Assembly (NCBI GenBank): GCA_025463215.1
Contig: JAOBWF010000325.1
Location: 1 to 61,822 of the forward strand
Length of the DNA stretch: 61,822 bases
Source: Acidobacteriota bacterium
Lineage (GTDB): Bacteria; Acidobacteriota; Vicinamibacteria; Vicinamibacterales; CAVVIG01
Reading direction: 5' to 3'
Shown here: positions 18,943-61,822 of the stretch, in pieces
Layout: each line of letters begins with the position of its first letter
Position numbering within the stretch: position 1 is the stretch's first letter
The notes under the pieces: generated by a model
What the model was told of the DNA's origin: nothing
Databases searched by the model: none
What the model saw: the letters and a program-made list of their open reading frames with translations, nothing else
Made by a program: the position numbers and the translations under genes

Positions 18943-19007
18943 TGGCTGATGGCTGATGGCTGATGGCTGATGGCCCTATCGATTAGCCATTAGCCATTTA
19001 GCCATGG
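18943..19007. repeat. 7-base repeat array, GGCTGAT / ATTAGCC, inverted
   Basis: Four copies of GGCTGAT, a short spacer, then about three copies of ATTAGCC on the opposite orientation. The two halves can pair into one long imperfect hairpin between the genes at 18933 and 19021. Confidence 0.85.
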
Positions 19008-19020
19008 CAGAATCACTCCC

Positions 19021-19473
19021 ATGCGCATCACCGTGCTGACCGCCCTGCTCGCGCAGCTCGCCGCTCCGGCCAAGCCGGGGCACGCCACGATCCAGCCGTC
19101 GCCGGTCGAAGTCAACGGCGCCGCCGGCGGAAAGCTGGCGCTGTTTGTCGACGTCACGCCGAAGCCCGGGATTCACGTTTATGCCCCCGGCTCGAAGGAC
19201 TACATCCCGATTACGGTGAAGCTGAACGCGCAGCCGGAGATCAAGGCCGGCAAGATCGCGTACCCGAAATCGGAGATGATGACCTTCGCCGACGAGAAGG
19301 TGCCGGTGTTTCAGAAGCCGTTTCGCCTGACGCAGGACGTCACGCTGGACAAATCGGCCAAGGCGGGATCGACGGTCACGGTGTCGGGGACGGTGAACTA
19401 CCAGGCGTGCGACGACCGCGTCTGCTACGCGCCCGAATCGTTTCCGGTGACCTGGACGGTTGTGGTCAAGTGA
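19021..19473 (+). CDS. DsbD N-terminal-like (DsbD-alpha) domain protein
   Basis: Exported protein of 150 residues resembling the immunoglobulin-like N-terminal domain of thiol:disulfide interchange protein DsbD. The block GTVNYQACDDRVCYAPES carries the two cysteines that pass electrons in that domain. No membrane (DsbD-beta) domain follows, so it is a free-standing version. It may carry reducing power to periplasmic proteins, or only share the fold. Confidence 0.8.
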   Translation: MRITVLTALLAQLAAPAKPGHATIQPSPVEVNGAAGGKLALFVDVTPKPGIHVYAPGSKDYIPITVKLNAQPEIKAGKIAYPKSEMMTFADEKVPVFQKPFRLTQDVTLDKSAKAGSTVTVSGTVNYQACDDRVCYAPESFPVTWTVVVK

Positions 19474-19518
19474 GAACTCAGAACTGAGAAGTCAGAACTG
19501 AGAACTCAGAACTCAGAA
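19473..19518. repeat. 7-base repeat array, AGAACTC type
   Basis: Units AGAACTC, AGAACTG, AGAAGTC, AGAACTG, AGAACTC, AGAACTC fill the gap between two convergent genes. The stop codon of the minus-strand gene at 19513 lies inside it. Confidence 0.85.
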
Positions 19519-20211: not shown

Positions 20212-20248
20212 GATGCGAGGCGCTGATATTGTATCTCAGGAGTTCATC

Positions 20249-20626: not shown

Positions 20627-20648
20627 GCGAGGTTCGCACTGGTGTCGT

Positions 20649-20710
20649 TGTTAGCTGTGAGTTGTTAGTTCTGAGTTCTGAGTTCTGAGTTCTTAGTTGT
20701 TAGTTGCTAG
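20649..20710. repeat. 7-base repeat array, GTTAGTT / CTGAGTT type
   Basis: Units include GTTAGTT, CTGAGTT (three times), CTTAGTT and GTTAGTT, just downstream of crcB. This is the reverse-complement relative of the AGAACTC array at 19473. Confidence 0.85.
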
Positions 20711-20785
20711 AAATCTAGCGCTCCAAGCGCCAGGCGCCGACTGGCACCCTATTTGATAGAAAGAGCCTCGTGCATGGAGGTGAAC

Positions 20786-21076: not shown

Positions 21077-21082
21077 GCCCTC

Positions 21083-21126
21083 AAAAAAAACGGGGGCTCG
21101 AGGCACACCGCCGCCTCAGCCCCCGT
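21083..21126 (-). terminator. Rho-independent terminator
   Basis: Read on the minus strand, ACGGGGGCT pairs with AGCCCCCGT (with a further GAGGC/GCCTC pairing inside) and is followed by eight Ts. It lies 24 bases after the stop of the gene at 21150. Confidence 0.9.
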
Positions 21127-21149
21127 ATCCAGCTCCGGGCCCCTGGCGC

Positions 21150-21698: not shown

Positions 21699-21718
21699 AC
21701 AGTGACCTCCAGAGAAGA

Positions 21719-23086: not shown

Positions 23087-24054
23087 CCGTTGCTCTTGAC
23101 GTAGCGCGCGATCTGCTCGTGCGTCGCAAACCAGACGCCCGGCTTCGACTTCATGTGCACGATCAGCTTCTCGAGCCCTGCGACCCGCGACCGATGGCCG
23201 GTGATGTGCGGGTGCATCGTCAGGATGAAGAGGCCGCCTTCGTCGTAGGCGACGTCGAACTCGGACCGGAAGACTTTTTCGACTTCGTCCGGGTTCGGCA
23301 TGCCGCCGTTGGTGGCGCCGCCGAAGTACGGGAAGTCGTCGACGATCCGCTCGATCGGCAGCTCGACGAGGCCGGTCGGCTGCTTGTCGAGCAGGATCTC
23401 GTAGGCATCGTCGCTCGCCATCAGGCTGCTGTCGTAGAGGAAGCCGGCGTTCTTGACCTGGCCGATCGTCCACTGGCTGAACTGCCACGACGGCGCGCGA
23501 TAGCCGACCGGCTTTTTGCCGATCGCTTTCGTCAGCACGTCGATCGCGCGGTTCAGCATGTCCTGTTCGGCGGCGGCGTCGTTGATCGACGGCAGGTGCT
23601 CGTGAATCCAGCCGTGGACGCCGATCTCGTGGCGGCCGCTCTTCTGGATCGCCGGGATCATGCCGGGGTGGAGCAGGTGGCTGACCGCGGGGATGAAGAA
23701 CGACGCCGGAATCTGATGCTTGTCGAGCAGCCGCAGGATCCGCGGCAGGCCGTCGACGGCGCCGTACTCGCCGCGCGAGATCGACTCGGAGATCAGGTTG
23801 CCGGTGGCGAGATCCGCGGTCGCGTTGTCGACGTCGAAGCTGAGGCCGACCGCGACCCGCGCGCCGTTGGGCCACGCCGCCGGCTTGAGCCGCGTGCCGG
23901 CGCTGACGTGAAACATCTGACCGCTGATCTGATCGAGCGGCAGCTTGGTCCCCGGCTGCGGCCGCGCCTGCGCGAACAGCGCCGCGGACGCGAGCACAGT
24001 GGCCGCGGCGATCCCGCCGATCCGCGATCCGCAATCCGCGATCCGCAATGTCAT
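23077..24054 (-). CDS. Secreted polysaccharide deacetylase (NodB fold)
   Basis: Enzyme of 325 residues that removes acetyl (or similar) groups from polysaccharide or small amides. The NodB motifs are LSFDVDNATAD (metal Asp), HEIGVHGWIHEH (His pair), APSWQF and a late LTMHPHITGH. A signal peptide begins at the ATG at 24054, which overlaps the MFS stop (ATGA). Codons 2-12 of the signal peptide (TLRIADCGSRI) come from a 7-base repeat array. It may act on cyclic amides rather than sugars, as some members of this group do. Confidence 0.82.
   Translation of the reverse strand: MTLRIADCGSRIGGIAAATVLASAALFAQARPQPGTKLPLDQISGQMFHVSAGTRLKPAAWPNGARVAVGLSFDVDNATADLATGNLISESISRGEYGAVDGLPRILRLLDKHQIPASFFIPAVSHLLHPGMIPAIQKSGRHEIGVHGWIHEHLPSINDAAAEQDMLNRAIDVLTKAIGKKPVGYRAPSWQFSQWTIGQVKNAGFLYDSSLMASDDAYEILLDKQPTGLVELPIERIVDDFPYFGGATNGGMPNPDEVEKVFRSEFDVAYDEGGLFILTMHPHITGHRSRVAGLEKLIVHMKSKPGVWFATHEQIARYVKSNGRS
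24020..24050. repeat. 7-base repeat array, ATCCGCA / ATCCGCG
   Basis: Units ATCCGCG, ATCCGCA, ATCCGCG, ATCCGCA encode the start of the deacetylase signal peptide on the minus strand. Confidence 0.75.
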
Positions 24055-25355
24055 GCTTCCCTCACTCCGTGGCTTCTGACGAGGAAATACGCGGCGACGA
24101 CCACCAGCAGGGCGCCGTTGATGCTGATGACCATCGGCGCGCCAATCAAGGTGGCGAAGTAACCGCTGATCAGGCTGCCGAGCGGCATGCCGCCGCGAAA
24201 CGCCAGCATGTAGATGCTCATGACGCGGCCGCGCATCTCGTTCGGCGCAATCAGCTGGATCAGCGACGTCACGGTCGAGAACACGATCATCAGCGCCGCG
24301 CCGGTGAAGAACAGCAGGATGTCGCTCAGCCACAGCACCCGCGACATCGCGAACCCGACAATCAGCAGGCCGTAGATCGCCTGCACGATCAGCGCGGTCA
24401 GCCCCATCCGGTTGAACTTGCCGAGCCACGCGATGATCAGCGCGCCGACCACCGATCCAATCCCCGAGAACGCCAGCAGGTGGCTGTAGGTGCCGGCGCC
24501 TGCATGGAAGACCTGCTGCGCGAACACCGGCAGGAACGTCAGCACCGAGAAGCCGAGAAAGGTCGTCGCCGCCGCGAGCACGATGAACGCCTTCAGGCTG
24601 GAGTGATTGCGCACGTAGGACAGGCCGATCCGCAGATCGTCGCGCATCCCTTTCGACGCCGCCGGCGGGATGTGCTTGACGTGCAGCATCATCAGCGTGT
24701 TGATGACGACCACGAACGACAGGGCGTTGAGGGCGAAGCAGGCGTTCATCGCCTGCGCTTCGTCGTAGCCCCATTGGCCGAACAGGGTCAGCGTGAGGCC
24801 GAAGAGCAGCGGGCCGATGACGCGCGCGACGTTGAACTGGATCGAATTCAACGCGACTGCGTTGGGCAGATCTTTCTTGTCGACCAGCGACGGAATCAGC
24901 GACTGATAGGCCGGGCCGCCGAACGCCTGCGCGAAGCCGGTGACCGAGGACAGCACCAGGATGTGCCAGATCTGGACGACGTGCAGGTACATCAGGACGG
25001 CGAGGGCGGCCGACGTCGCCATCTGCACGTACTGCGAGGCGATCAGCGTGCGCCGGCGATCACGCCGATCCGCGAGCACGCCGCCGATGAGCGTGAAGAG
25101 CATGATCGGCAGCTGCTGCAGGAAGGCGTCGAGCCCGAGGTAGAGCGGCGACTTCGTCAGGGTGATGACGAGCCAGTTCTGCGCCGCGATCTGCATCCAC
25201 GTGCCGATGCTCGAGGTGCAGGCGCCGAACCACTGGACGCGGAAGTCGCGGTAGGTGAAGGCCGCGAACATGCGGCGGGTCGCGCGCGCGCTCATGGAAG
25301 AGGGCGCCGCTTCGGCCGGGGTGGTGCTGGGTGACGCGGGGCTAGGTTCGGCCAA
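24051..25355 (-). CDS. MFS exporter (EntS/DHA3-like)
   Basis: Twelve-helix transporter of 434 residues. FTYRDFRVQWFGACTSSIGTWMQ and GGVLADRRDRRRTLI are typical of the drug:H+ antiporter-3/EntS group, which export siderophores or toxic compounds. The TTG at 25355 starts the open frame; an ATG at 25295 would drop 20 poorly conserved residues. It overlaps the deacetylase by ATGA and is divergent from imuA. Confidence 0.85.
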   Translation of the reverse strand: MAEPSPASPSTTPAEAAPSSMSARATRRMFAAFTYRDFRVQWFGACTSSIGTWMQIAAQNWLVITLTKSPLYLGLDAFLQQLPIMLFTLIGGVLADRRDRRRTLIASQYVQMATSAALAVLMYLHVVQIWHILVLSSVTGFAQAFGGPAYQSLIPSLVDKKDLPNAVALNSIQFNVARVIGPLLFGLTLTLFGQWGYDEAQAMNACFALNALSFVVVINTLMMLHVKHIPPAASKGMRDDLRIGLSYVRNHSSLKAFIVLAAATTFLGFSVLTFLPVFAQQVFHAGAGTYSHLLAFSGIGSVVGALIIAWLGKFNRMGLTALIVQAIYGLLIVGFAMSRVLWLSDILLFFTGAALMIVFSTVTSLIQLIAPNEMRGRVMSIYMLAFRGGMPLGSLISGYFATLIGAPMVISINGALLVVVAAYFLVRSHGVREA

Positions 25356-25380
25356 TGAAAAGGCTATTAATTTACATCAC

Positions 25381-25436
25381 TTGATCCCGTGCCGGGGCTG
25401 CCATATACTGCGCCGGAAAGGCGAAGATAAGGCGAA
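25381..25436 (+). promoter_or_regulatory. imuA promoter with direct repeat at the start of transcription
   Basis: TTGATC (25381-25386), 17 bases, TATACT (25404-25409), the normal layout of a housekeeping-sigma promoter. Just after the -10, AAGGCGAA occurs twice (25418-25425 and 25429-25436), 11 bases apart, one helical turn. It may be the operator of an SOS repressor; it does not match the known LexA boxes I recall. Confidence 0.6.
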
Positions 25437-25440
25437 ACGT

Positions 25441-26187
25441 ATGGCCCTTGCACGCGCTGACCTCGAATCGCTCCTCCGCGCCCGCCAGCTGGATCGCACG
25501 CTGACGACCGCGATTCCGCAGACCGACCCCCGCGACGAGCAGGCGGTCGCCGCCTCCGGCCTCAGTGCCTTAGACGCGCGTCTGGGCGGCGGGTTTCCGC
25601 GCGGCCAGCTCTCCGAAGTCGTCGGTCCGCGCTCGTCCGGCCGCGCCAGCCTGCTCCTCCAGATGATGGCGGCGGCGACGGCGCGCGGCGAACTGGTCGC
25701 GCTGGTCGACGCGCTCGACATGTTCGACGCGGGATCGGCGGCCGCGGCCGGCGTCGATCTCGATCGCCTGCTCTGGATCCGCGGCCACCTCGTCACCAAC
25801 CAGGGGCTCTGCCGCGAGCTCAATCAGCGCGCGATCGAGCAGGCGATCCGCGCGTTCACCCTCGTCCTCCAGGCCGGCAACTTCGGCCTCGTGGTGTTCG
25901 ACGCCGCCGAAGCGCCGGCCGATGCCGTCCGCCGGCTGCCGTTCACGACCTGGCTGCGGCTGCAGCGGATGGTCGAAGGGAGTCAGACCGCCTGTGTGCT
26001 GGTCGGGAGCGAGACCATGGCCAGGAGCTCCGCCGGCCTCACGTTGCGGTTAGGACTCGGCGCCCAGGGGTCAGGGCTCAGATTCAGCGCGCGTTTGTTC
26101 GACGGCATCGACATCGACGCGCGCGTCGTCCGCGCACGCGCGCGTGAACAAGAGGAGGCGTGCGTTGCCCTCAGCACCTCCGCCTAA
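25441..26187 (+). CDS. imuA: ImuA, RecA-like mutasome protein
   Basis: RecA-related protein of 248 residues, first gene of the imuA-imuB-dnaE2 damage-inducible mutagenesis cassette. The N-terminal segment LSALDARLGGGFPRGQLSEVVGPRSSGRASLLLQ is the RecA-like P-loop region, although the GPxxSGR loop lacks the classic GKT. The ATG at 25441 follows the promoter by about 30 bases. ImuA is thought to help load or activate the translesion polymerase DnaE2. Identification rests on fold-level motif and on the two genes that follow. Confidence 0.85.
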   Translation: MALARADLESLLRARQLDRTLTTAIPQTDPRDEQAVAASGLSALDARLGGGFPRGQLSEVVGPRSSGRASLLLQMMAAATARGELVALVDALDMFDAGSAAAAGVDLDRLLWIRGHLVTNQGLCRELNQRAIEQAIRAFTLVLQAGNFGLVVFDAAEAPADAVRRLPFTTWLRLQRMVEGSQTACVLVGSETMARSSAGLTLRLGLGAQGSGLRFSARLFDGIDIDARVVRARAREQEEACVALSTSA

Positions 26188-26237
26188 TTCGCCGAACCGG
26201 CCGAATCGGCGCAATCTGCATCACCCGGATAATCAGG

Positions 26238-26272
26238 CGAATCCGCAATCAGCAATCAGCAATCCGCAATCC
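26238..26272. repeat. 7-base repeat array, ATCCGCA / ATCAGCA
   Basis: Units ATCCGCA, ATCAGCA, ATCAGCA, ATCCGCA, ATCCG lie between imuA and the chosen GTG of imuB. If imuB starts earlier (TTG 26165, after AGAGGAGG), this array is translated. Confidence 0.8.
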
Positions 26273-27823
26273 GTGTACGCGTGTCTCTACCGACCGCCTG
26301 CGCCAGACGGATCCGACGAACGCCACCGCAGAGGATGCGACGATCGCAGCGCAGATCCTCTCTCGGCGGGCGCGGCGAACTCCGCGGTTGCTTCCCTGAC
26401 CGCGATCGCGCAGGAATTTTCGCCGCGGTTCGAGCGGCACCGCGACGATCTGGTGTCGATCGACGTCAGCGGGCTGACGCGCCTGCTCGGGCCGGCGCAA
26501 ACGATTGGCGAGGAGATGCGGCGCGACGCCGCCGGACGCGGCGTGCGCGTGCATGTCGCGGTCGCCGGCACGCGCATGGCGGCGATGCTGCTCGCGATCG
26601 CGCGCCCGGGGCTCACCATCGTCCCCCCCGGCGGAGAAGCCGAGGCGCTTGCGCCGCTCCCGCTCGGCATCCTCGAACAGGCGGGCGATGACGATCGCAC
26701 GGAGCGTCCGCACAGCGTGCGGACAACTCCTGATCGAAAAGACGCTGCCGCCGTGGCGGTGTTGGCGTTCAAACGCTGGGGGCTCAAGACGCTGGGGGAG
26801 CTGGCGTCGCTGCCGGCGGCGGATCTCGTGTCGCGGCTCGGGCGGGAGGCGCGGGTGTGGCAGGCGATGGCGCGCGGCGAGGATCTGCGGCCGCTGGTGC
26901 CGATGCTCGAGGAGGAACGGTTCGAGGCGTCGCTCGATCTCGAGTGGCCGATTTCGGATCTGGAGCCGCTGTCGTTCGTGCTGACGCGGCTGCTCGAACC
27001 GCTGTCGACGCGGCTGGAGCGGCGCGATCGGGGGGCCGCGGTGCTGCACGTCCTGCTGCGCCTGGTCACGCGCGACCCTGCGACAGGCGCAGGGCGGGAG
27101 ACCTGTGCGCGGCGGCTGGAGCTGCCGACGCCGATGCGCGACGTGCGCGCGCTGCGGACCCTGGCGCTGCTCGACCTCGAGGCCCATCCGGCGGAGGCGG
27201 CGATCGATCGCGTCACGATCGTCATCGATCCGACGCCGGGGCGCGTCATGCAGCACACGCTCTACACCCGGGCGCAGCCGACGCCGGAGCAGCTCTCGAC
27301 GCTGCTCGCGCGGCTGGGCGCGCTGATGGGCGCCGACCGCTTCGGCGCCGCCGCGCTGGTCGACACCGATCGCCCAGGCGCGTTCGCGATGAAGCCGTTC
27401 GCCGTCGATCACCGCACCGGGAACCACCGCGGCGATCGCGCCCTGACTCCTGCGCCCTGCGTCGTGTCCGCGCTGCGCAGATGCCGTCAGCCGGTGGCGG
27501 CGCGCGTTGCGGTCGCCGCGGGACGGCCGGTGCGGGTCACCACCGATCGCCGCGGATTTCCGGGCGGCGCCGTGACCCACTGCGCCGGGCCGTGGCGCAC
27601 GTCCGGGGAGTGGTGGACGGACGAAGAACAGTTACAAGTGAGAAGTGAGAAGTTACACGTGCACGTTCACAGTTCTGAGTTCACAGTTCTGAGGTCCGGC
27701 GCCGCAGGCGCCGGCCCCTGGAACCGGGACGAGTGGGACGTGTCGCTCAGCGACGGCGCGGTCTACCGCGTGTTTCGCGACCGCGATGCCGACCGCTGGT
27801 TCATCGACGCGATCGTCGACTGA
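26273..27823 (+). CDS. imuB: ImuB, Y-family polymerase-like mutasome protein
   Basis: Protein of 516 residues, the non-catalytic Y-family subunit that links DnaE2 to the sliding clamp. The start is debatable: GTG 26273 gives the family-like N-terminus YACLYRPP, whereas TTG 26165 has a better ribosome site but adds repeat-coded residues. The part before LTAIAQEFSPRFERHRDDL is short, and a 64-base hairpin element replaces sequence that is normally present. Palm and finger-like regions follow (FKRWGLKTLGELA, LVSRLGREARVW). Near the C-terminus a 63-base repeat array adds about 21 residues (about 453-474) before NRDEWDVSLSDGAVYRVF. Confidence 0.82.
   Translation: MYACLYRPPAPDGSDERHRRGCDDRSADPLSAGAANSAVASLTAIAQEFSPRFERHRDDLVSIDVSGLTRLLGPAQTIGEEMRRDAAGRGVRVHVAVAGTRMAAMLLAIARPGLTIVPPGGEAEALAPLPLGILEQAGDDDRTERPHSVRTTPDRKDAAAVAVLAFKRWGLKTLGELASLPAADLVSRLGREARVWQAMARGEDLRPLVPMLEEERFEASLDLEWPISDLEPLSFVLTRLLEPLSTRLERRDRGAAVLHVLLRLVTRDPATGAGRETCARRLELPTPMRDVRALRTLALLDLEAHPAEAAIDRVTIVIDPTPGRVMQHTLYTRAQPTPEQLSTLLARLGALMGADRFGAAALVDTDRPGAFAMKPFAVDHRTGNHRGDRALTPAPCVVSALRRCRQPVAARVAVAAGRPVRVTTDRRGFPGGAVTHCAGPWRTSGEWWTDEEQLQVRSEKLHVHVHSSEFTVLRSGAAGAGPWNRDEWDVSLSDGAVYRVFRDRDADRWFIDAIVD
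26325..26388. repeat. Hairpin element (64 bases) in imuB
   Basis: Left arm ACCGCAGAG (26325-26333), right arm CTCCGCGGT (26380-26388). One of four elements in the window. It lies in the imuB N-terminal coding region and keeps the frame open. Confidence 0.7.
27630..27693 (+). repeat. 7-base repeat array inside imuB
   Basis: Units AGTTACA, AGTGAGA, AGTGAGA, AGTTACA, CGTGCAC, GTTCACA, GTTCTGA, GTTCACA, GTTCTGA: nine units, 63 bases, 21 codons, in frame, in the loop before the conserved imuB C-terminal block. Confidence 0.85.
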
Positions 27824-27858: not shown

Positions 27859-30800
27859 ATGTACGTCGAACTCCACATGGCGTCGGCCTTCAGCTTTCTG
27901 CAGGGCGCGTCGCTGCCCGAAGCGCTCGTCGCACGCGCGGCGGCACTCGGCTATCCGGCGCTGGCGCTGCTCGATCGCGACGGCGTCTACGGCGCGCCGC
28001 GGTTTCACAAGGCGGCGAAGGCGGCAGGTCTCCGTCCGATCATCGGCGCGGAGCTGACCCTTCGGGAAGTTAGAACTCAGAAGTCAGAACTTAGAACTGC
28101 AAATTCAACTTCAACTTCTACTTCTACTTCGACTTCTCACTTCTCACTTCAAACTGCTAACTTTCTGCTCCCTGTCCTCTGCGAAAGCGCCGACGGCTAC
28201 AGAAACCTCTGCCGCCTGATCACCCGCATGAAGCTGCGCGCGCCCAAGGGGGAAGGGGCGTTGACGCTCGAGGATCTCGACGGCTGCACCACCGGGCTCG
28301 TCGCGCTCGTCGGGCGCGCGGCGCTCGATGGCCGCCGCCACGGCATCGGCGGGCTGCTCGATCGGCTCGTCGGCATCTTCGGCCGCGGCCAGGTCTACGT
28401 CGAACTGCAGCGGCACCTGCGCCGCGACGAGGAGCGCGACAACGAGGCGCTCGTCAGCCTGGCGTCGGCGTTCCGCGTGCCGACGCTCGCGACCAACGGC
28501 GTCCGCTTCGACACTTCGTCGGCGCGGCCGCTGTTCGACGTCCTCACCTGCATTCACCATGGCACCGATCTGGTAACTGCCGGCCGGCGGCTCGCGCCCA
28601 ATGCCGAGCGCTACCTGAAGGGGCCGGCCGAGATGGCCGCGCTGTTCGCGGATCATCCGGATGCCGTCGCCCGCACCGGCGAGCTCGCCGATCGCCTCCA
28701 GTACACGATGGCCGATCTCGGCTACCGCTTTCCCGAGTATCCGGTGCCGCCGGGCGAGACGCAGAGCTCGTTCCTGCGCCGCATCACCGACGTCGGCGCG
28801 CGCGAGCGCTACCGGCCGTATCACGACAAGGCACGCGCCCAGATCGCGCGCGAGCTCGATCTGATCGAGAAGCTCCAGCTCGCCGGCTATTTCCTGATCG
28901 TCTGGGACATCGTCAATTTCTGCCGGCAGCACGACATCCTCGTGCAGGGGCGCGGCTCGGCGGCCAACAGCGCCGTCTGCTACAGCCTCGGGATTACCGC
29001 GGTCGATCCGGTCGGGATGGACCTGCTGTTCGAGCGCTTCCTGTCGGAGGAGCGCGGCGAATGGCCCGACATCGATCTCGATCTGCCGAGCGGCGAGCGG
29101 CGCGAGCAGGTCATCCAGCACGTTTACGAAAAGTACGGCCGGCTCGGCGCGGCGATGACCGCCAACGTGATCACCTATCGCGGCCGCAGCGCGGCGCGCG
29201 AGGTCGGCAAGGCGCTCGGCTTCGCGCCGGCGCAGGTCGACCGCCTCGCCAAGATCATGAACAACTTCGAGTTCACCGACCCGGGGGACTCGCTGCCGCA
29301 GCAGATGGCGGCGGTCGGCCTCGACCTCAACACGTCGCGCGTCGGCCAGTTCGCGCGGCTGTGGCACGAGATGCAGGATCTGCCGCGCCACCTCGGCCAG
29401 CACTCCGGCGGCATGGTGATCTGCCAGGGGCAGCTCGACGCCTGCGTGCCGCTCGAAAACGCCAGCATGCCCGGACGCGTCGTCGTCCAATGGGACAAGG
29501 ACGACTGCGCCGACATGGGGATCGTCAAGGTCGATCTCCTCGGCCTCGGGATGATGGCGGTGCTGCAGGATTCGTTCGCGCTCATCAACGGCGAACACGC
29601 AACCGCCGGCAGCGCCGAGAGCGGAGAGAAGTGTTTTTCCGCGAGCGCTGCGCGCTCCGCGGTTGGTTCCCGGGAGCAGATCGTCGATCTGGCGCATCTG
29701 CCGCAGGATCCGGCGGTCTACAAGATGCTGTGCGAGGCCGACACGATCGGCCTGTTCCAGGTCGAGTCGCGCGCCCAGATGGCGACGCTGCCGCGGCTCA
29801 AGCCGATGGTGTTCTACGACCTGGTCGTGCAGGTGGCGATCATCCGGCCGGGGCCGATCGTCGGCCAGATGGTCCATCCGTACTTGAACCGGCGCGCCGG
29901 CCGCGAGGCGGTGGTGTACGCGCACCCGTCGCTCGAGCCGATCCTGGCGCGCACGCTCGGCGTGCCGCTGTTCCAGGAGCAGCTGCTGCGGATGGCGATG
30001 GTCGCCGCCGGCTTCACCGGCGGCCAGGCCGAGGATCTGCGCCGCGCGATGGGGTTCAAGCGATCCGAGAAGCGGATGAAACAGATCGAAGTGCAGCTGC
30101 GCGAGGGGATGGCGCGCCAGGGCATTACCGGCGTCGCCGCGGAGCAGATCATCACCTCGATCGCCTCGTTCGCGCTCTACGGCTTTCCCGAGTCGCACGC
30201 CGCGAGCTTCGCGCTGCTCGCGTATGCCAGCGCGTATCTCAAGCTGCATTTCCCCGCGGCGTTCTACACCGCGCTGCTCAACAACCAGCCGATGGGGTTC
30301 TACCATCCCGCCACGCTCGTCAAGGACGCGCAGCGCCGCGGCGTCCGCTTCCATCCGGTCGACGTGCAGATCTCCAACTGGGAGTGCACCGTCGAACCCG
30401 ACGGCGCGATCCGCCTCGGCCTGCGCTACGTCACCGGCCTCCGCGAACAGGCGGGGCGCGCTATCGCCAGTCGTCAATCGTCAGTCGTCAGTCAGCAGCC
30501 GTCAGGCGGCAATGATCAGCCGTCAGCCGGCAATCATCAATCCCATCAGCCATCAGCCATCAGCCATCAGCCATCGCCGGTCTGTCCGAAGTGCGGCTGC
30601 GACGACGAGTCGATGCTGGAATCGATCGATGCGGCGAAATGGTTCTGCAATAACTGCTCGCACGACTGGACGCCGCGCCGCCGCGCGCCGCGGTTCCGAT
30701 CGATCGACGAGCTGGTCGCGCGCGCCGGCCTGCGCCGCGACGAGCTCGTGACCCTCGCGGACGTCGGCGCGCTCAACGGCTTCGGCTACGACCGCCGCTC

Positions 30801-46946: not shown

Positions 46947-47003
46947 GAATTGCTGATTGCAAATTGCCAATTGCAAATTTATTTAGCAATTAGCAATTTG
47001 CAA
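46947..47003. repeat. 7-base repeat array, AATTGCA, inverted
   Basis: Units GATTGCA, AATTGCC, AATTGCA, then AGCAATT, AGCAATT on the other side of a short A+T spacer. It fills the gap between two convergent genes and can fold as a long hairpin; a bidirectional terminator is possible. Confidence 0.85.
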
Positions 47004-47014
47004 TGATCGCGGTT

Positions 47015-51328: not shown

Positions 51329-52786
51329 CTATTTCGGATCGGGCACCGTCGGCACCGTGTAGGTCTTCTTCAGCGCGCTCTGGTACTCGCCGAACAACGC
51401 CTTGATTCCGTCGAACTCCTGCTTGACCGCGGCGCGATAGTCCGCGTGCGTCGCGAAGTCGAACAGCACCGCGGTCATCGTCTGCGCGTCGACGGTGAAG
51501 CCCTTGTGGCCGATCTCCTTCAGGTTGTCCGCGTCCATCTCATAGGTATGGTTCGAGAAGGTCGACGTCTGCGCGCTGATGCCGATTCCCGGTATGTCGC
51601 GCGACACGCTGCCCGTCTCCTCGAACCCCTGCGGCTTCCCGGGGACGTCGGTGACGCCGGTGGCGCCGAAGCTTTTCATGTACGCGAACCCGAGGTCGCC
51701 GAGCGTGGCCAGGCTGACGCCGTCGACGAGATGGCTGTAGTGATCGATCTTGACCTTGGTTCCGGTCGCGAGCGCCGCCGCCTTCGCCGCGTTGTCGACG
51801 AACTCCACGACCTGCGCGAGATAGACCTCGTCGGGATAGCGGATGTAGAAGTCGGCGACCGTGCGATCCGGCACCACGTTCGGCGCCGTGCCGCCCTCGA
51901 GGATGTAGCCCTGGATCCGCGCCTCGGGGCGGATGCTCGGGCGCACCGCGTCGATGTTGCCGAACAGCAGGTTCATCGCGGTCAGCGCGTTGCGGCCGTT
52001 CCACGGCGTCATCTGGTGCGTCGGCGCGCCGGAAAAGGTGTACTTGGTGCCGACGATGTTCAGGCAGCAGGTGCCGAAGCCGGGCGCCGGCCGCGCCGTG
52101 ACGCTCGAGGCGTGGCTGCGGATGATGACGTCGGCGCCGTCGAACGCGTGCGCGAGGTGCATCTCGGTTTTCGCCACCGGCGGCATCATCTCCTCGCCCG
52201 GCGTGCCGTAGACGATGACGCTGCCAGGCGACTTGGTGCGCGCGAGATACTCCGCCATCGCGATCGCCGCGGCCATGCCGACCGGCCCCTGCGCGCTGTG
52301 CTGGTCACCGTGGAACGCCCCCTTGGTGCCGCGCAGCGCGTCGTACTCGAGGATCACGCCGAGGACCGGGCTGCCGTTGTTCTGCTTGAACTTGGCGACG
52401 AACGCGGTCGACAGGCCGGCGGTGCCGGTCTCGACGGTGAAGTTGTGCTGACGCAGATAATCGGTCAGCTTGCCGATCGACCGCTTCTCCTCGAAGCCGA
52501 TCTCGGGATGGGTCGCAATGTCGTCGGCGAGCGCGAGGAGCTCCTTGTCCATCAGCTCCTTGGCGCGCGCGACCACCTGATCGCGGGTCGCGTTCGGTCC
52601 GGTCATCCGCGTCACCAGGCCGGGAACGTCGAGCGCCTGCTCGAGCGTCGCCATCTTCTTCAAGACGTCGCGCGCCGCTTCTTTTTCGGTCGTGGTGTCC
52701 TGGGCTGACGCAGGAGAAGTCAGAAGGAAGAAGGCAGAAGCTAGAAGGAAAGTCAGGAGGAACGTCCGACGAAGGCGCTGCATCAT
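51329..52786 (-). CDS. M20-family amidohydrolase (AbgB-like)
   Basis: Metal-dependent amidohydrolase of 485 residues with a signal peptide. It shows the M20 metal blocks HGDQHSAQGPVG and GTPGEEMMPPVAKTEM and a dimerisation-type lid region, matching the aminobenzoyl-glutamate hydrolase (AbgB) branch. Two ATGs in a row open the frame; TATAAT lies 6 bases before the first. The hydrophobic core of the signal peptide (residues 12-24) comes from a 7-base repeat array. The in vivo substrate is unknown. Confidence 0.85.
   Translation of the reverse strand: MMQRLRRTFLLTFLLASAFFLLTSPASAQDTTTEKEAARDVLKKMATLEQALDVPGLVTRMTGPNATRDQVVARAKELMDKELLALADDIATHPEIGFEEKRSIGKLTDYLRQHNFTVETGTAGLSTAFVAKFKQNNGSPVLGVILEYDALRGTKGAFHGDQHSAQGPVGMAAAIAMAEYLARTKSPGSVIVYGTPGEEMMPPVAKTEMHLAHAFDGADVIIRSHASSVTARPAPGFGTCCLNIVGTKYTFSGAPTHQMTPWNGRNALTAMNLLFGNIDAVRPSIRPEARIQGYILEGGTAPNVVPDRTVADFYIRYPDEVYLAQVVEFVDNAAKAAALATGTKVKIDHYSHLVDGVSLATLGDLGFAYMKSFGATGVTDVPGKPQGFEETGSVSRDIPGIGISAQTSTFSNHTYEMDADNLKEIGHKGFTVDAQTMTAVLFDFATHADYRAAVKQEFDGIKALFGEYQSALKKTYTVPTVPDPK
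52715..52763 (-). repeat. 7-base repeat array, AGAAGGA type, forming a signal-peptide core
   Basis: Units AGAAGTC, AGAAGGA, AGAAGGC, AGAAGCT, AGAAGGA, AAGTCAG. On the minus strand three 7-base units make seven codons, giving hydrophobic Phe/Leu-rich repeats (FLLASAFFLLTS). Confidence 0.85.
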
Positions 52787-52792
52787 GACCCG

Positions 52793-52798
52793 ATTATA
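52793..52798 (-). promoter_or_regulatory. -10 box TATAAT of the M20 amidohydrolase
   Basis: TATAAT then 6 bases to the ATG at 52786. Leaderless-type spacing. Confidence 0.55.
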
Positions 52799-52823
52799 GC
52801 CAAGCGCGACGAGCCCATCAGCG

Positions 52824-52858
52824 ATGGCCATGGCGACTAGCCATCAGCCATCAGCCAT
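52824..52858. repeat. 7-base repeat array, CATCAGC / GGCTGAT
   Basis: Units CATCAGC with a short inverse GATGGCC part. It sits between the end of the exopolysaccharide operon (52861) and the M20 promoter. Confidence 0.75.
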
Positions 52859-53673: not shown

Positions 53674-54545
53674 GGGCGGCCTTCTTGAGATTTCAGATTT
53701 CTGATTTCAGAATTCAGACTTCGTACTTCAGCCTTCAGACCCTGTCCGTCAGACTTCTCACTTCGTACGTCAAACGTCCGAGCGCGGCGAAGCAGCGCGA
53801 GGTGAGCGCTGAGCCACGGCTGGCCCCACGCTGCCGACTTCCGTCCCGTCGTGTCGAGCGTCGCCGCGCGGCCAGCCTCGATTTCCAGCAGCTTGTCGCG
53901 AATCGCGTCGAGGTGATCGAGCACGGCGCGGTGCTGCATGATCACGTGCGATTCGCGCGGGTCGGCGTCGATGTGGAAGTAGCCGAACACCGGGCCGGTG
54001 TCGACGCCTTTATCGATCCGCAGCAGGGTCATGCCGACGTTGCGGTGATCGCCGGTCGCCATCGCCCAGAAACAGCCGTGCGCGTTGCGATACTCGGGAC
54101 AGATGCCCGGGTGCATGACGAACGTGCCGAGCGCCGGGATCGAGAACACCCGCTCGGCGAGCAGCGTCTTGCAGCGGGCGATCACGAGGTCCGGTCGCTG
54201 CGCCGCGATGAAGGCCTGCGCGTCAGGCGAGTTCGGCGACGAGACGATCACCTCGGGGGCATCGACGCGCTGTGGATAGGACGCGCGCAGCCGATCGAGC
54301 TCCCGCGCCTCCCACTCACGATCGCCGCTCGCCTGCCACAGGCGATGGAAGACCCGGAACGCGAGCACATCGAGGAACCGCAGCCAGCCGACGCGCTTCA
54401 CCTCGCGCGCGATCCGCTTGCGCAGCCGCCCGCCAGGCTCGCGGATCACGACCGTGCCGGTGAACGTCGAGAACGACCCGAACCACCGCGCCAGACCTTC
54501 ACGATCGAGCGCGGCGTCCTCGTGGCAGATGAGTAACGTCCGCAT
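53670..54545 (-). CDS. Formyltransferase (methionyl-tRNA formyltransferase-like)
   Basis: Protein of 291 residues with the formyltransferase motif HPGICPEYRNAHGCFWA (about residues 140-157) and later block GVDTGPVFGYF. It is shorter than tRNA formyltransferase and lies in a sugar operon, so it likely N-formylates an amino-sugar nucleotide. Its last 35 residues (from FDVRSEKS) are encoded by a 7-base repeat array. The gap to the AlgD gene is 9 bases. Confidence 0.82.
   Translation of the reverse strand: MRTLLICHEDAALDREGLARWFGSFSTFTGTVVIREPGGRLRKRIAREVKRVGWLRFLDVLAFRVFHRLWQASGDREWEARELDRLRASYPQRVDAPEVIVSSPNSPDAQAFIAAQRPDLVIARCKTLLAERVFSIPALGTFVMHPGICPEYRNAHGCFWAMATGDHRNVGMTLLRIDKGVDTGPVFGYFHIDADPRESHVIMQHRAVLDHLDAIRDKLLEIEAGRAATLDTTGRKSAAWGQPWLSAHLALLRRARTFDVRSEKSDGQGLKAEVRSLNSEIRNLKSQEGRP
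53688..53780. repeat. 7-base repeat array, GATTTCA / GACTTCT type
   Basis: Units GATTTCA, GATTTCT, GATTTCA, GAATTCA, GACTTCG, TACTTCA, GCCTTCA, TCCGTCA, GACTTCT, CACTTCG. It encodes the C-terminal tail of the formyltransferase. Confidence 0.85.
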
Positions 54546-54554
54546 CGGTGTCTC

Positions 54555-55871: not shown

Positions 55872-57298
55872 AACGCGTCTCCTTGAGATTTCAGAGGGCT
55901 GAATTCAGACTTCAGATTGATTCGCGCAGCCGCAGCCGGCACATCCCCGGCCGGTACCTCCGCAGGCCGCCATCCGCGATCCGCGATGTTGACGAGCGCC
56001 TGCTCGAGCGAGCCGGCGACCGCGGACCAGTCGTAGCGCTCGAGGACGAGGGCGCGGGCGGCGGTTTCGAGCTCGCCGCGGCGGCTGACGTCGCGGAGGA
56101 GGCTGACGACGGCGCGCGCGAATGTCTGCGGCTCGTCCGCCAGCATCACGTGCTCGCCATTGGTCACGGGAAGCCCCTCGGCGCCGACGGTCGTCGATAC
56201 GACCGCCTTGCCCATCGCCATCGCCTCGAAAATCTTCAGCCGCGTGCCGCCGCCAATCCGGAGCGGCACGATGTAGACCGCCGCCTCGTTCATATACGGC
56301 CGCACATCGTCGACCCGTCCGGTGACGGTGACGCCAGGCTCTTCGGCGAGCCGCTTCACGGCGGGCGTCGGTGTCCGGCCGACGATCGACAACGTCACCC
56401 CCGGCTCCTCGGCGCGGATGATCGGCAGAATGTCGCGACAGAAGTACTGCATGGCGTCTTCGTTCGGCAGCCAATCCATCGAGCCGGTGAAGATCAGGTG
56501 CGAGGTGCGGGGTGCGGCGTGCGAGGTGCTCGGTGCGCCGTGCGAGGTGCTGGGCGCGGCGTCCGAGGTGCTCGGTGCGTCGTGCGAGGTGCTGGGCGCG
56601 GCGTGCGAGACACGCGGGGCGGGGTGCGGCGTGCCGTCCGGCGCAAAGTAGTCGGTGTCGACGCCGGTCGGCACGACGTGGACCGGCTGCCGGATAGCGC
56701 CGGGGTAGAGCGCCGCGAACGTCTCGCGATCGGCGTCGGACACCGCGAGGACGCCGTCGAAGCGCGCCAGCGTCTGGCGCTCGTAACGCAGCATCCGCTG
56801 GTATTGCGCGTTGTAGAGCGCTTTCTGCATCGCGCCGGACTTGGTTTCCGCGTGCCGGCGCCAGATCTCCGATTCGACGTTGTGCGTGAACATCACCGCG
56901 GGGCAGGGCAGCTGCTTCGGCAGGTTGACCGCCGGAAACAGGAAGTCGCAGACGATCAGATCGAACGCTTCGGTCGCGAGCAGCGTATTCAGCCGCTGCT
57001 GGTACTCGCGCGACCGATATTTGCCGACCGCGTACGGCAGCGGATCGACGAGGTGCATCGCCGCGTCCACGTAGAAGCGGAAGGTGCCCTTCACCGGCTC
57101 CGACCGGGTGACGGTTTCGACGCGCGCGGCGACCTCACGCATGCCGTCGACGTCGGCGGCGGGCTGCGCCGGCTCCTTGAACGCGAGATACGTGATCTCG
57201 TGGCGCCGCGCCAGATGGCGCATCAGGTGCCACGTTCTCAGCTTGCCGCCCTTATCAAGCGGCAGCAGCAGATCCGATTTCAGCCACAGAATGCGCAT
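55868..57298 (-). CDS. Glycosyltransferase (PEP-CTERM/XrtA-cluster type)
   Basis: GT-B glycosyltransferase of 476 residues. LPLDKGGKLRTWHLMRHLARRHEI at the N-terminus is like the stp2-type transferases of exosortase-linked exopolysaccharide clusters. The C-terminal half has the nucleotide-sugar site (VVPLRIGGGTRLKIFEAMAMGKAVVS). A linker of about 45 residues (APSTSH-type repeats, about 220-265) lies between the two halves and is encoded by a 7-base array. The last residues (NLKSEFSPLKS) also come from an array. The ATG at 57298 overlaps asnB by 44 bases. Confidence 0.85.
   Translation of the reverse strand: MRILWLKSDLLLPLDKGGKLRTWHLMRHLARRHEITYLAFKEPAQPAADVDGMREVAARVETVTRSEPVKGTFRFYVDAAMHLVDPLPYAVGKYRSREYQQRLNTLLATEAFDLIVCDFLFPAVNLPKQLPCPAVMFTHNVESEIWRRHAETKSGAMQKALYNAQYQRMLRYERQTLARFDGVLAVSDADRETFAALYPGAIRQPVHVVPTGVDTDYFAPDGTPHPAPRVSHAAPSTSHDAPSTSDAAPSTSHGAPSTSHAAPRTSHLIFTGSMDWLPNEDAMQYFCRDILPIIRAEEPGVTLSIVGRTPTPAVKRLAEEPGVTVTGRVDDVRPYMNEAAVYIVPLRIGGGTRLKIFEAMAMGKAVVSTTVGAEGLPVTNGEHVMLADEPQTFARAVVSLLRDVSRRGELETAARALVLERYDWSAVAGSLEQALVNIADRGWRPAEVPAGDVPAAAARINLKSEFSPLKSQGDAL
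55884..55925. repeat. 7-base repeat array, GATTTCA / GACTTCA
   Basis: GATTTCA, GAGGGCT, GAATTCA, GACTTCA, GATTGAT. It encodes the C-terminal tail of the glycosyltransferase; same type as 53688. Confidence 0.75.
56498..56634. repeat. 7-base repeat array, GTGCGAG / GTGCTCG
   Basis: The longest array, about 19 units: GTGCGAG, GTGCGGG, GTGCGGC, GTGCTCG, GTGCGCC, GTGCTGG, GCGCGGC and variants. It is read on the minus strand as an AP-S/R-TS-H linker inside the glycosyltransferase. Confidence 0.9.
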
Positions 57299-59255: not shown

Positions 59256-59256
59256 G

Positions 59257-59427
59257 TCAGGAGACCGCCAATTCGGAATGAGCGGCCGGCGCCACGCCGC
59301 GTCGCGCCAGCTCGGTGAGAGACAGGATCCGGTTCGGAGCGTCAGCCATCGCCGCCGCCGGCCGAGCGCCGCGGTTCGAGTCGATGTCGGTCACCTCGAC
59401 GGCCGCAACGGGAATGGCTGACTGCAC
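59257..59427 (-). CDS. Possible small ORF before asnB 1
   Basis: A frame of 56 codons from a GTG at 59427, ending 1 base before the asnB ATG. Its end (NRILSLTELARRGVAPAAHSELAVS) looks like a normal protein helix. It lies in the 231-base gap between the two asnB genes, which otherwise holds nothing I can name. It could be a small exopolysaccharide-cluster protein or a chance frame. Confidence 0.35.
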   Translation of the reverse strand: MQSAIPVAAVEVTDIDSNRGARPAAAMADAPNRILSLTELARRGVAPAAHSELAVS

Positions 59428-59486
59428 GGGTGTCACCTGAGCAAGGCAGGTGCCAGCAGAGTTCAACAAAACGCTCCTGAAGTTCC

Positions 59487-61418
59487 TCAGGACGACTGCG
59501 CAAGCGCGGCGCTGGGAAGCGCAGGTGCGGAGAGTGGAAACGAATTGACGTACTGCTGTTGCCACTTCTCGAAGACGACGAGCTGCCACAGCCGCAGCGT
59601 GTGGTCGCGCTTGCCGGTCAGGTGCTCGTCGACGATGCGCTGGACGAAGGACGGCTGGAAATAGCCGCGCTGAAGGCTCGCGGGCGACAGCAGCGTATCC
59701 GCAAACAGCTCGCGCAGGTTGCCGCGGAACCAGGTGCCAAGCGGCACACCGAACCCCTGCTTGCGGCGGTCGAGGATCTCGCGCGGCACCAGCGTCGCGG
59801 CGACCTCCTTGAGCACGTGCTTGCGGCGGCCGTTCTTGATCTTCAGCGCCGCGGGCAGCGCCGACGCAAACGCGACCACGTCGTTGTCGAGCAGCGGCAC
59901 GCGGGACTCGATTGAATGCGCCATGCTCATCCGGTCGACTTTGGTCAGCACATCTTCCGGCAGGTAGGTCTCCGCGTCGAAGCGCATCATCTGGCTCGGC
60001 CACGGCAGCTGCGCGAAGCGCTCGAAGTGGCGCGCGAGCCGGGTTTCCGGATCAGGCCCCTCAATCGCGCTCCGGACGTCGCGGCTCAAGAGCGCCGGCT
60101 TCTCGTCGGTGCCGAAGTACCGGATCGCGTCGAGATAGCGGCCCTGCTCGTCGCGGGCGACATGGCGCAGGAAGTTCTTGCCGCGCATGCCGTGGGGCAG
60201 CCCCGCGGCCGCAATCGCCGCGACGCGGCGCAGCGCGCGCGGGCTGTAGCGGTCGAAGGCGACCACCCGCGGGTGCGGGAGGTAGCGCTCGTAGCCGCCG
60301 AACAGTTCATCGCCGCCGTCGCCCGAGAGCACGACGGTTACGTGACGCCGCGCCATCTCGGACACGTACCATGTCGGAATCGCCGACGAATCCGCGAACG
60401 GCTCGTCGAAATGGGTGATGAGCCGGTCGAGGATGTCCACGCCGTCGGGCTTCACGACGAACTCGTGGTGGTCGGTGCCGAAGTGATCGGCAACCTGGCG
60501 CGCCTTGTCGAGCTCGTCGAACTCGGGCTCGTCGAAACCGATAGAGAACGTCTTGACCCGGGCGCTGGAGAGCTCCGACATCAGGCCGACGACGAGGCTG
60601 GAATCGACGCCGCCGGAGAGGAAGGCGCCGAGCGGCACGTCGCTGATCATGTGCGAGCGCACGGCGTCCTTCAGCACGGCGTGCAGCTGCTCGACCGCAT
60701 CCTCTTCGGAGCCACGGAACGTCTCCGCCGCCGGCATCTGCCAGTACTGCTCGATTCCGATCCGGCCGTCGGTCCACGTCAGCAGGTGGCCGGGCGGCAG
60801 CTTGCGCACGCTCTTGAAGATCGAGCCGTCGCGCGGCGTGTAGAGGAACGAGAGATAGTGATCGAGCGCCGCGGCATCGAGCTCGCGCGGCAGATCGGGG
60901 GCTTCGAGCAGCGACTTGATTTCCGATCCGAAGTAGAAGCGGCCGCCGACGGTCGCATAGTGCAGCGGCTTGATGCCGATGCGGTCTCGCGCGACCAGCA
61001 GCGTCCGCGAGGTCGTGTCCCAGATCGCGAGCCCGAACATCCCGCGTAGCCGGGCGATCGCGCCCTTCCCCCATTGCTCGTAGGCGTGGACGATGACCTC
61101 GGTGTCGGTCGCCGTGTAGAAGGCGTGCCCCGCCGCTTCGAGCTCCTGGCGCAATTCGCGGAAGTTGTAGATCTCGCCGTTGAACACGATCCAGACCGTC
61201 GAATCCTCGTTGTGGATCGGCTGATGACCGGTCGAGAGATCGATGATGCTCAGACGCCGCATGCCGAGCGCCACGCCCTCGGCGACCCACACCCCCTCGT
61301 CGTCCGGCCCGCGATGGCGGATGACATCGCACATCCGGTGGACGAGCGTCCGGCTGCTGTCGGTGTTGAACGGCGAGCGGGTGTCAGAGGACTCTACGAA
61401 ACCGGCGATGCCGCACAT
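59487..61418 (-). CDS. asnB: Asparagine synthase-type amidotransferase 2
   Basis: Protein of 643 residues with the same layout as its neighbour: Cys2 (MCGIAGFV), GEIYNFRELRQ, and the ATP loop SGGVDSSLVV. The two differ in many places and are old paralogues, not a recent duplication. In exosortase/exopolysaccharide clusters a copy of this kind is standard; two suggest amidation of two uronic sites. It overlaps the upstream gene by 25 bases. Confidence 0.9.
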   Translation of the reverse strand: MCGIAGFVESSDTRSPFNTDSSRTLVHRMCDVIRHRGPDDEGVWVAEGVALGMRRLSIIDLSTGHQPIHNEDSTVWIVFNGEIYNFRELRQELEAAGHAFYTATDTEVIVHAYEQWGKGAIARLRGMFGLAIWDTTSRTLLVARDRIGIKPLHYATVGGRFYFGSEIKSLLEAPDLPRELDAAALDHYLSFLYTPRDGSIFKSVRKLPPGHLLTWTDGRIGIEQYWQMPAAETFRGSEEDAVEQLHAVLKDAVRSHMISDVPLGAFLSGGVDSSLVVGLMSELSSARVKTFSIGFDEPEFDELDKARQVADHFGTDHHEFVVKPDGVDILDRLITHFDEPFADSSAIPTWYVSEMARRHVTVVLSGDGGDELFGGYERYLPHPRVVAFDRYSPRALRRVAAIAAAGLPHGMRGKNFLRHVARDEQGRYLDAIRYFGTDEKPALLSRDVRSAIEGPDPETRLARHFERFAQLPWPSQMMRFDAETYLPEDVLTKVDRMSMAHSIESRVPLLDNDVVAFASALPAALKIKNGRRKHVLKEVAATLVPREILDRRKQGFGVPLGTWFRGNLRELFADTLLSPASLQRGYFQPSFVQRIVDEHLTGKRDHTLRLWQLVVFEKWQQQYVNSFPLSAPALPSAALAQSS

Positions 61419-61822
61419 GTCAGGTTCTCGGGTTCAAGGTTCGAGGGTTCAGGGGCCGGGGATTGTCGGTTCAGGAGCTCGAGAGTTCTGGTCCGTGCCG
61501 TGGTCGCATCGACGGCGGCGAGGCACACGAGCGGGCGGCCGACCTCGGTGCGGTACGCCAGCATCCGCGCGTCGGTCTCGACGTCGCCGACGCGCCACAG
61601 TTTGCGTCCACAGCCAGGCGCCTTCGCCGCGTTCGTGGCGAGCTCCGCCGAGTGGTCTTCTTCGGCGAACAGCACGTGGTCGACCGACCCGGCGCGCGTG
61701 ATGCGGATGGCGGTCGCGTGCGCGATCGCCCCCGCTTCGGCCCACACCGGCATCCAATCGACGTCGGCGACCGGATTCTGCGGATCGAGATCGAACACGC
61801 TGACCAGCCAGAACGGTGCCTC
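61394..61822 (-). CDS. C-terminal part of a heparinase-like polysaccharide enzyme (partial)
   Basis: The reading frame is open to the right edge of the window; 142 residues are visible. The sequence (VDHVLFAEEDHSAELATNAAK, then RMLAYRTEVGRPLVCLAAVD) is strand-rich and resembles the C-terminal beta-sandwich of heparinase II/III-type lyases, which are common in exopolysaccharide clusters. This is only a guess. The last 30 residues (LELLNRQSPAPEPSNLEPEN) are encoded by a repeat array. Confidence 0.5.
   Translation of the reverse strand, partial: EAPFWLVSVFDLDPQNPVADVDWMPVWAEAGAIAHATAIRITRAGSVDHVLFAEEDHSAELATNAAKAPGCGRKLWRVGDVETDARMLAYRTEVGRPLVCLAAVDATTARTRTLELLNRQSPAPEPSNLEPENLTCAASPVS
61422..61487. 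repeat. 7-base repeat array, GGTTCTC / GGGTTCA type
   Basis: Units GGTTCTC, GGGTTCAA, GGTTCGA, GGGTTCA, with irregular spacing after. It encodes the tail of the partial gene and lies just upstream of asnB 2. Confidence 0.65.

Follow-up and report, generated by a model that had tools for sequence, protein, structure and literature searches.

Period-7 tandem arrays with differing units in an acidobacterial genome and its relatives: shared operon sites and facing inverted pairs

Arrays and genes of the window

Contig JAOBWF010000325.1 of an Acidobacteriota bacterium (assembly GCA_025463215.1, order Vicinamibacterales) carries, along the 61,822 nucleotides (nt) analysed here as the window, short tandem arrays that mostly repeat every 7 nt (period 7, or p7; likewise p8 and p9) and differ from one another in the repeated unit. 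In related genomes p7 arrays occupy the same spacers and protein loops of an imuA-imuB-like-dnaE2 operon with different units, and within the order they often form facing inverted pairs. The source genome of the window, denoted G000 (the other sampled genomes also have G-numbers), is a draft genome of a soil bacterium (5.79 Mb in 441 contigs, 87.9% complete, 7.2% contaminated). The arrays and the operon genes of the window are as follows.

18942..18998, + strand: facing pair, ATGGCTG x4.7 (18942-18974) then ATTAGCC copies (18982-18998), in a spacer with a gene weakly matching Gly-zipper on one side and a DsbD_N-like gene on the other
19473..19518, + strand: AGAACTC-family array between convergent genes
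20647..20710, - strand: AGAACTC-family array (AGTTCTG on the + strand) after a CrcB-like gene
24008..24049, + strand: (G/A)ATCCGC array in a spacer
25255..26187, + strand: ImuA-like gene (RecA fold; NF033429 ImuA below cut-off)
26240..26273, + strand: AATCCGC array in the spacer between the ImuA-like and ImuB-like genes
26453..27823, + strand: Y-family polymerase-like gene, presumed ImuB (IMS domains below cut-off; synteny; frame open from 26144)
27636..27693, + strand: AAGTGAG array, then AGTTCTG-type repeats, within the ImuB-like gene
27859..31380, + strand: error-prone DNA polymerase DnaE2 (start inferred from homology)
28066..28150, + strand: in-frame facing arrays AGAACTC/AGAAGTC, then ACTTCT and ACTTCTC, in a loop of the DnaE2 PHP domain
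30464..30575, + strand: in-frame array, TCGTCAG grading to CCATCAG, in the DnaE2 loop before CPKCGC
46948..47004, + strand: facing AATTGCA / TTAGCAA arrays, each weak, between convergent genes (hairpin z-score (z) -4.4)
52715..52748, + strand: weak AGAAGG(A/C) array
52796..52858, + strand: AGCCATC repeats at the border of co-directional genes, clean period 7 at 52839-52858
53684..53772, + strand: AGATTTC/CTTCAGA array at the 3' end of the minus-strand gene 53670-54545
56497..56634, - strand: in-frame 21/42-bp array built on GGTGCGG-like heptamers, in a glycosyltransferase gene

The p7 arrays, whose presence a first-pass annotation of this DNA had reported, are real and far above chance. Nine dense lag-7 arrays were found, and 10 order-3 Markov sequences contained 0.1 on average; dense arrays of periods 4, 5, 8-11 and 13 were absent, and periods 6 and 12 gave one each. 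Relative to 20 Markov sequences, 11 segments reached a lag-7 score of at least 12 (0.1 expected) and 15 a score of at least 10 (0.5 expected). Tandem Repeats Finder also placed period-7 or period-14 arrays at most of the coordinates named in that annotation. Its wording, 'at least 18 arrays' of a 'strict period of 7', was too strong. Taking the best lag-7 score from 15 bases before to 150 bases after each of its 17 coordinates, we obtained solid arrays (score at least 12) at ten: 18943, 19473, 20649, 24020, 26238, 28067 (the scoring segment being 28132-28150), 30468, 52824, 53688 and 56498. Four are weaker, namely 27630 and 46947 (score 11 each), 55884 (score 10, at 55967-55987 and with another unit) and 52715 (21 of 27 lag-7 matches in 52715-52748), and three have other periods: 22998 (21/28), 50644 (15) and 61422 (22 or 15). 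The description of some arrays as mixed proved correct, since 30464-30575 grades from TCGTCAG through CCGTCAG to CCATCAG.

Arrays lie inside genes at 28066, 30464, 53688 and 56498, the last being best described as period 21, and in an open frame at 27636. Rfam gave no match at the gathering threshold in the window. Six of the seven p7 arrays found in 284 kb of unselected G000 stretches (four of these contigs read as N) fall in the window, making it denser than the rest of the sampled genome. A glycosyltransferase gene adjoins two asparagine-synthase-like genes, 57255-59255 and 59487-61418, which are near the XrtA/PEP-CTERM amidotransferase family (below cut-off); together they are possibly part of an exosortase-linked polysaccharide cluster.

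Period 7 beyond the window

Since some stretches of G000 and of G018, a genome of the same family, had been picked for carrying AGAACTC, they were excluded from the tests of unit identity, array density, operon versus elsewhere, SbcD contrast and gene layout, and were included in those of unit structure, CAG/CTG content, inverted partners, polarity, AGAACTC order and flanks. Gene layout in the array counts comes from a simple purpose-made gene caller. The AGAACTC trimer occupies 28 overlapping positions in G000 (8 forward, 20 reverse), and its reversed spelling none. G001, of the same genus, is without the trimer, yet has other heptamers. Arrays in G000 lie mostly outside genes, the imu operon excepted: 29 are intergenic and 6 genic, AGAACTC-picked contigs included. 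In G029, a relative assembled as a single contig, 240 kb contain 15 p7 arrays; the sampled DNA of G016 (80 kb), G031 (40 kb) and G004 (30 kb) has none that reaches score 14.

For other phyla we used a set of at least 115 loci from genomes that were picked for carrying AGAACTC and are therefore not a random sample. Away from the AGAACTC match itself, and among the 115 matches listed, these loci hold 104 p7 arrays as opposed to 9 of p6, 9 of p8, 13 of p9 and 1 of p10; shuffled sequence gave none (here and below, all array, unit and pair counts from this set are among the matches listed). Locus L019 (Anaerophaga thermohalophila) has a non-heptamer counterpart, the 9-mer ATCTGTGTC in five arrays within 8 kb.

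The array counts are decisive, whereas plain autocorrelation, which the first-pass annotation had put forward as a check, is weak as a test. In intergenic DNA of genomes of the order other than G000 it amounts to 0.284 at lag 7 against 0.279, 0.275 and 0.283 at lags 6, 8 and 9, and in G029 lags 6 and 7 hardly differ (0.2858 and 0.2853).

The imuA-imuB-like-dnaE2 operon

The gene order MFS, ImuA-like, Y-family (ImuB-like) and DnaE2 is conserved in most sampled genomes of the order, the names ImuA and ImuB resting on below-cut-off matches and synteny. Among 17 genomes, this operon has p7 arrays in 12, only p8 or p9 arrays in 3 and none in 2 (G004 and G013). The p7 arrays sit at shared spacers and protein loops, three of the loops being in DnaE2 and several in the ImuB-like gene, and their units differ by genome. 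Thus, one of these loops carries AGAACTC, GAATTCA, CATTCGA, CCACTAG or CCCGAAT, depending on the genome, and the spacer between the ImuA-like and ImuB-like genes has CCCTGAG, AGGGCAG or GGGATTA in three relatives instead of the AATCCGC of the window. The window stretches 28066-28150 and 30464-30575 are two of the array-holding DnaE2 loops. The idea that the period is kept while the unit varies, originally drawn from the window, is therefore supported at orthologous sites, with 7 the commonest period.

Period 7 dominates even in the coding part of the operon. Inside the imuB-like and dnaE2 genes, 29 of 41 arrays are p7 (4 are p8, 7 p9 and 1 of period 11), although 7 is not frame-safe; therefore, tolerated inserts arrive mostly with period 7. 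The operon as a whole has 44 p7 arrays in 112.5 kb, and coding DNA elsewhere 10 p7, 14 p9 and 11 p6 arrays in 1,269 kb. Per 100 kb this corresponds to 39 p7 arrays in the operon, 4.7 in the remaining sampled DNA and 0.8 in coding DNA elsewhere.

A single reading frame runs through 35 of the 38 gene copies examined. In G001, the frame of DnaE2 changes within a 47-base stretch, 22 bases of which are a TCAGCCC array; the changes in G012 (ImuB-like) and G013 (DnaE2) are away from period-7 arrays, that in G012 having a 17-base period-8 repeat nearby. The G013 gene (L234, about 10886-11029) has an extra stretch together with the frame change, at a junction without a tandem array. As a separate observation, the DNA between the ImuB-like gene and dnaE2 of G011 (L232, 5158-5485) contains two successive copies of a facing 8-mer pair (GAATTGAG ... 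CTCAAATC).

Units and unit families

Units recur as families within and between genomes, among them AACTCAG, AATCCGC and AGCCATC. The two units are identical in 16 of 250 pairs taken within a genome and in 40 of 2737 taken between genomes; the within-genome value of 0.064 compares with at most 0.052 in 300 shuffles. If one mismatch is allowed, the observed 0.144 equals the highest shuffle (shuffle mean 0.082). Two candidate rules for unit choice were rejected. The mean fraction of permutations more structured than the unit was 0.68 for 17 family units and 0.60 for 68 cross-phylum units, a mild tendency only, and the idea of a primase site (CAG/CTG in each unit) was dropped at 18 of 49 units with 10.8 expected and 18 of 63 with 11.4 expected.

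Facing inverted pairs

The first-pass annotation overlooked that many arrays have an inverted partner nearby. This is true of 34 of 119 p7 arrays, against 14 of 357 when flanks of other loci were used and 38 of 333 with other loci of the same genome; for p8 the count is 17 of 28, and the two controls give 3 of 84 and 6 of 47, respectively. Arrays of periods 5, 6 and 10-12 have a partner in 1 of 28 cases. Direct copies in the flank, expected of broken arrays, accompany 24 of the 119 p7 arrays. Pairing of p7 arrays ranges by genome from 13/21 (G018) and 5/36 (G000) to 0/6 (G028). Of the 241 arrays in the cross-phylum set, 32 are accompanied by an inverted copy and 42 by a direct one, and shuffled flanks (best of 20) reach the threshold in 8 of 468 cases.

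The order provides 49 distinct facing pairs, with a median gap of 32. In five chosen examples, two of them inside DnaE2 genes, the hairpin folds better than shuffles (z from -2.3 to -9.5). In the window, the pair at 18942..18998 gives a single-stranded DNA hairpin with z -4.7, matched by 0 of 200 shuffles, its inverted score of 10 being just below the threshold of the pairing scan; the pair at 28066..28150, whose second arm is largely of period 6, has z -2.3, and 3 of 200 shuffles fold as well.

The pairs of the order also have a polarity. When all units and periods are taken together, purines prevail in the left arm of 42 pairs and pyrimidines in that of 5, and 2 pairs are tied. Pairs of one genome are non-independent, G018 alone giving 19, and the ratio without G018 is 23 to 5. 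This polarity is a property of the structure, whichever strand is read, since reverse-complementing a facing pair gives the same facing pair again. Likewise, AGAACT precedes AGTTCT in all nine neighbouring AGAACTC-type pairs of G000, G001 and G018.

SbcCD and inverted pairs

SbcCD is a nuclease that cuts hairpins. Most sampled genomes of the order lack it: SbcD was above cut-off in 3 of 36 relatives (G007, G021 and G029) and missing from the other 33, two further genomes, G000 included, having short sub-threshold matches. In the three positive genomes SbcC adjoins SbcD, below the curated SbcC cut-off; it is near full length in G007 and G029 and in pieces at a contig end in G021. The control, RecJ, was above cut-off in 31 of the 36 genomes.

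The density of p7 arrays is equal with and without SbcD (21 in 425 kb and 57 in 1,126 kb), and the difference lies in the inverted pairs. An inverted score of at least 14 was reached by 0 of 32 arrays in SbcD-positive and 25 of 90 in SbcD-negative genomes. For arrays of period 7-9, partners were found at the middle threshold for 2 of 32 and 28 of 90, respectively (p=0.004), and at another threshold for 0 of 28 and 25 of 69 (p=6e-5). G025, whose SbcD status was not searched, is omitted from these comparisons. Strong inverted pairs are nearly confined, on few lineages, to genomes without SbcCD, an observation that we treat as a lead. The AGAACTC palindrome pattern was found only in G000 among 237 genomes of the phylum and is therefore unusable as a phylum-wide test of the SbcCD link.

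A probable replication-error origin and its alternatives

We consider the arrays to be probably footprints of replication error, namely slippage and fold-back copying with a step of 7-9 nt. That the period is kept across differing spellings points to a copying error that counts bases and does not read them. Largely irrespective of sequence, the growing strand would realign by 7 nt at a time, or less often by 8 or 9. A one-step backward slip would create and lengthen tandem arrays, and point changes, re-copied afterwards, would make the units drift. Were the growing strand to fold back and copy itself, it would produce a facing inverted copy and with it a hairpin. Arrays would then persist where they do little harm, that is, in spacers and tolerant protein loops. 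The step itself may be set by the footprint of the polymerase or of re-annealing, and loss of SbcCD may let hairpins survive. A bolder synthesis, which we offer only tentatively and would rather doubt than assert, is that a single sequence-blind re-annealing error of 7-9 nt acts through slippage and fold-back on purine-rich nascent strands, leaves inverted products mainly in SbcCD-less lineages and has the error-prone polymerase operon, possibly a frame-switching mutator, as its favourite coding target in the order.

If correct, the replication-error origin would matter in several respects. For the preference for 7 in bacteria, PMC4692102 offers only a hypothesis beside the excess. Orthologous loops with the same period and differing units make it possible to separate supply from selection, inverted pairs of fixed polarity are a pointer to copying by fold-back, and the SbcCD contrast lends itself to a direct genetic test. 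The imu operon hot spot would mean that a mutation-making system is possibly prone to repeat-driven switching.

A number of results weigh against this origin. The mechanism would in any case be one read from sequence, with no mutation observed. Unit choice is not neutral: identical units cluster in the same genome, which is unexpected under purely sequence-blind slippage, units are mildly unstructured relative to composition-matched permutations, and GAA/TTC and CAG/CTG are enriched in them. The AGAACTC trimer occurs in 3 of 60 genomes (G000, G002 and G018; its reversed spelling in 1 of 60) and recurs across many phyla (the loci of named genomes numbering at least 115). The inverted partners of p9 arrays (8/35) are not clearly above the same-genome control (13/90; other-locus flanks 7/105). 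The purine-first polarity is absent from the cross-phylum set (15 against 12, 1 tie), where neighbouring AGAACTC-type arrays occur in all orders: 4 AGAACT-first, 6 opposite and 5 direct. As to SbcCD, the contrast fades to 5/41 versus 33/126 (p=0.085) at the loosest thresholds, and we regard it as a lead because the array-bearing SbcD-positive lineages are only two (G007 and G029), the two samples come from different genome regions, much of the SbcD-negative one being centred on the imu operon, and three SbcD-negative genomes with at least five arrays have no pairs (0/11 in the unselected stretches of G000, 0/5 in G028, 0/6 in G032). Moreover, SbcD is above cut-off in only 31 of 237 phylum genomes, 86 others having sub-threshold matches only; with so few passing, lack of SbcCD may not predict arrays. 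The earlier suggestion of a process that measures length is strengthened, its freedom from sequence is not, and periods 8 and 9 also occur. Nor are units freely chosen, as had been implied, given the recurring families and the roughly fourfold higher frequency of identical units within than between genomes.

Of the other explanations, selection for binding sites of a global regulator or nucleoid protein, or for translational control elements, appears unlikely. It has precedents in two reports, in which paired opposite-strand tandem 7-, 8- and 9-mers of Geobacter metallireducens are proposed as IHF/HU global regulator sites (PMC2700814) and TAACTGA arrays of Beggiatoaceae as translational elements (PMC4679880), and it would agree with unit families recurring within genomes. 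It fits poorly with units that differ at the same orthologous site and with the many arrays in protein loops. Placement looked favourable in G000, where divergent genes flank only 2 of 29 spacer arrays (AGAACTC-picked contigs counted), yet the bias is weak in a wider unselected sample: 7 divergent against 13.4 expected, layout chi-square p=0.09, and 20 of 30 nearer the upstream stop, p=0.10. A 3'-side or terminator role, also considered, was rejected on the same figures, strong in the partly AGAACTC-picked sample and faded to p=0.09-0.10 in the wider one. A small mobile palindrome resembling REPINs, MITEs or Rickettsia palindromic elements, inserting in spacers and in frame in genes, would explain the same units at many loci of one genome, the hairpin shape and the in-frame genic copies. 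We nevertheless judge it very unlikely: there is no conserved flank (among 80 flanks from G000 and G018, 6 pairs are similar, and in 5 of these the two flanks are neighbours at a single locus), the loop sequences differ by eye, and at the same site different genera have arms of differing spelling.

The heptamers of the imu operon might instead be contingency switches, gain or loss of a unit shifting the frame and turning the mutasome on or off, as in a phase-variable mutator. The operon hot spot (39 against 4.7 and 0.8 p7 arrays per 100 kb), the fact that 7 is not a multiple of 3 and the frame change at the TCAGCCC-array stretch of G001 DnaE2 are in line with this. However, 35 of 38 gene copies are in one frame, the changes in G012 and G013 are not at period-7 arrays, G001 is a draft of 370 contigs, and tolerant loops account equally well for the hot spot, so that such switching seems quite unlikely. 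Finally, an assembly artefact of draft metagenome bins could be suspected from the fragmentation, incompleteness and contamination of G000. The first-pass annotation had named it as a possible flaw, and for the arrays as a class it is refuted: the p7 excess extends to many phyla, and arrays are present in single-contig G029 and in named isolates, Thiohalophilus thiocyanatoxydans DSM 16326 and Calothrix NIES-4105 among them, leaving an artefact scarcely credible.

Comparison with known repeat systems

Rickettsia palindromic elements and REPINs are palindromes in spacers, those of Rickettsia also occurring in frame in genes; the arrays described here differ in that no conserved flank or unit was found. 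Heptameric simple sequence repeats were reportedly over-represented in bacteria in a 2007 survey (reference 33 of PMC4692102). Our literature searches, with most subscription papers out of reach, showed no report of differing orthologous units, imu/dnaE2 heptamers or purine-first polarity. The cyanobacterial contrast of the first-pass annotation ('few fixed units') did not survive, Okeania and Scytonema loci each holding several heptamer units.

TAACTGA direct repeats are described in Beggiatoaceae, Cyanobacteria and Bacteroidetes, and two close Cyanothece strains differ mostly by 7-nt indels (PMC4679880). These heptamer arrays are, like ours, patchy across phyla, and AACTGAT is one base from AACTGAG; unlike ours, they have one favoured unit and, in the BOGUAY genome, lie mostly just upstream of start codons (PMC4679880). 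The Geobacter metallireducens arrays, paired opposite-strand 8-, 9- and 7-mers (classes 1-3) viewed as putative regulator sites, face each other across variable gaps and have units of 7, 8 or 9 nt (PMC2700814). Their class 3 consensus MTYCTGA covers ATTCTGA, that is, our AATTCAG unit, and their class 2 TCTCCGTS is near ACACGGAGG (PMC2700814). We find the opposite-strand arrays of 7-9 nt and the variable spacing here as well, and no fixed consensus per class; where those arrays are read as regulator sites, the present ones have differing orthologous units and lie in coding loops (PMC2700814).

The excess of heptamers in bacteria, and the idea of slippage set by the polymerase footprint (active site), have already been published, with GGGAATC in Xanthomonas, GGGGA(C/T)T in Nostoc and convergent inverted pairs in Xanthomonas (PMC4692102). 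Shared with the present arrays are the intergenic 7-nt excess and the variation of length and sequence between related species, but one G-rich unit type is studied there (PMC4692102), as opposed to many units, coding loops, differing orthologous units, polarity and a possible SbcCD link here. The arrays are a known repeat kind with a new, informative arrangement, the new elements being p7 arrays at shared operon spacers and loops with differing units, frequent facing pairs with polarity, and the SbcCD contrast.

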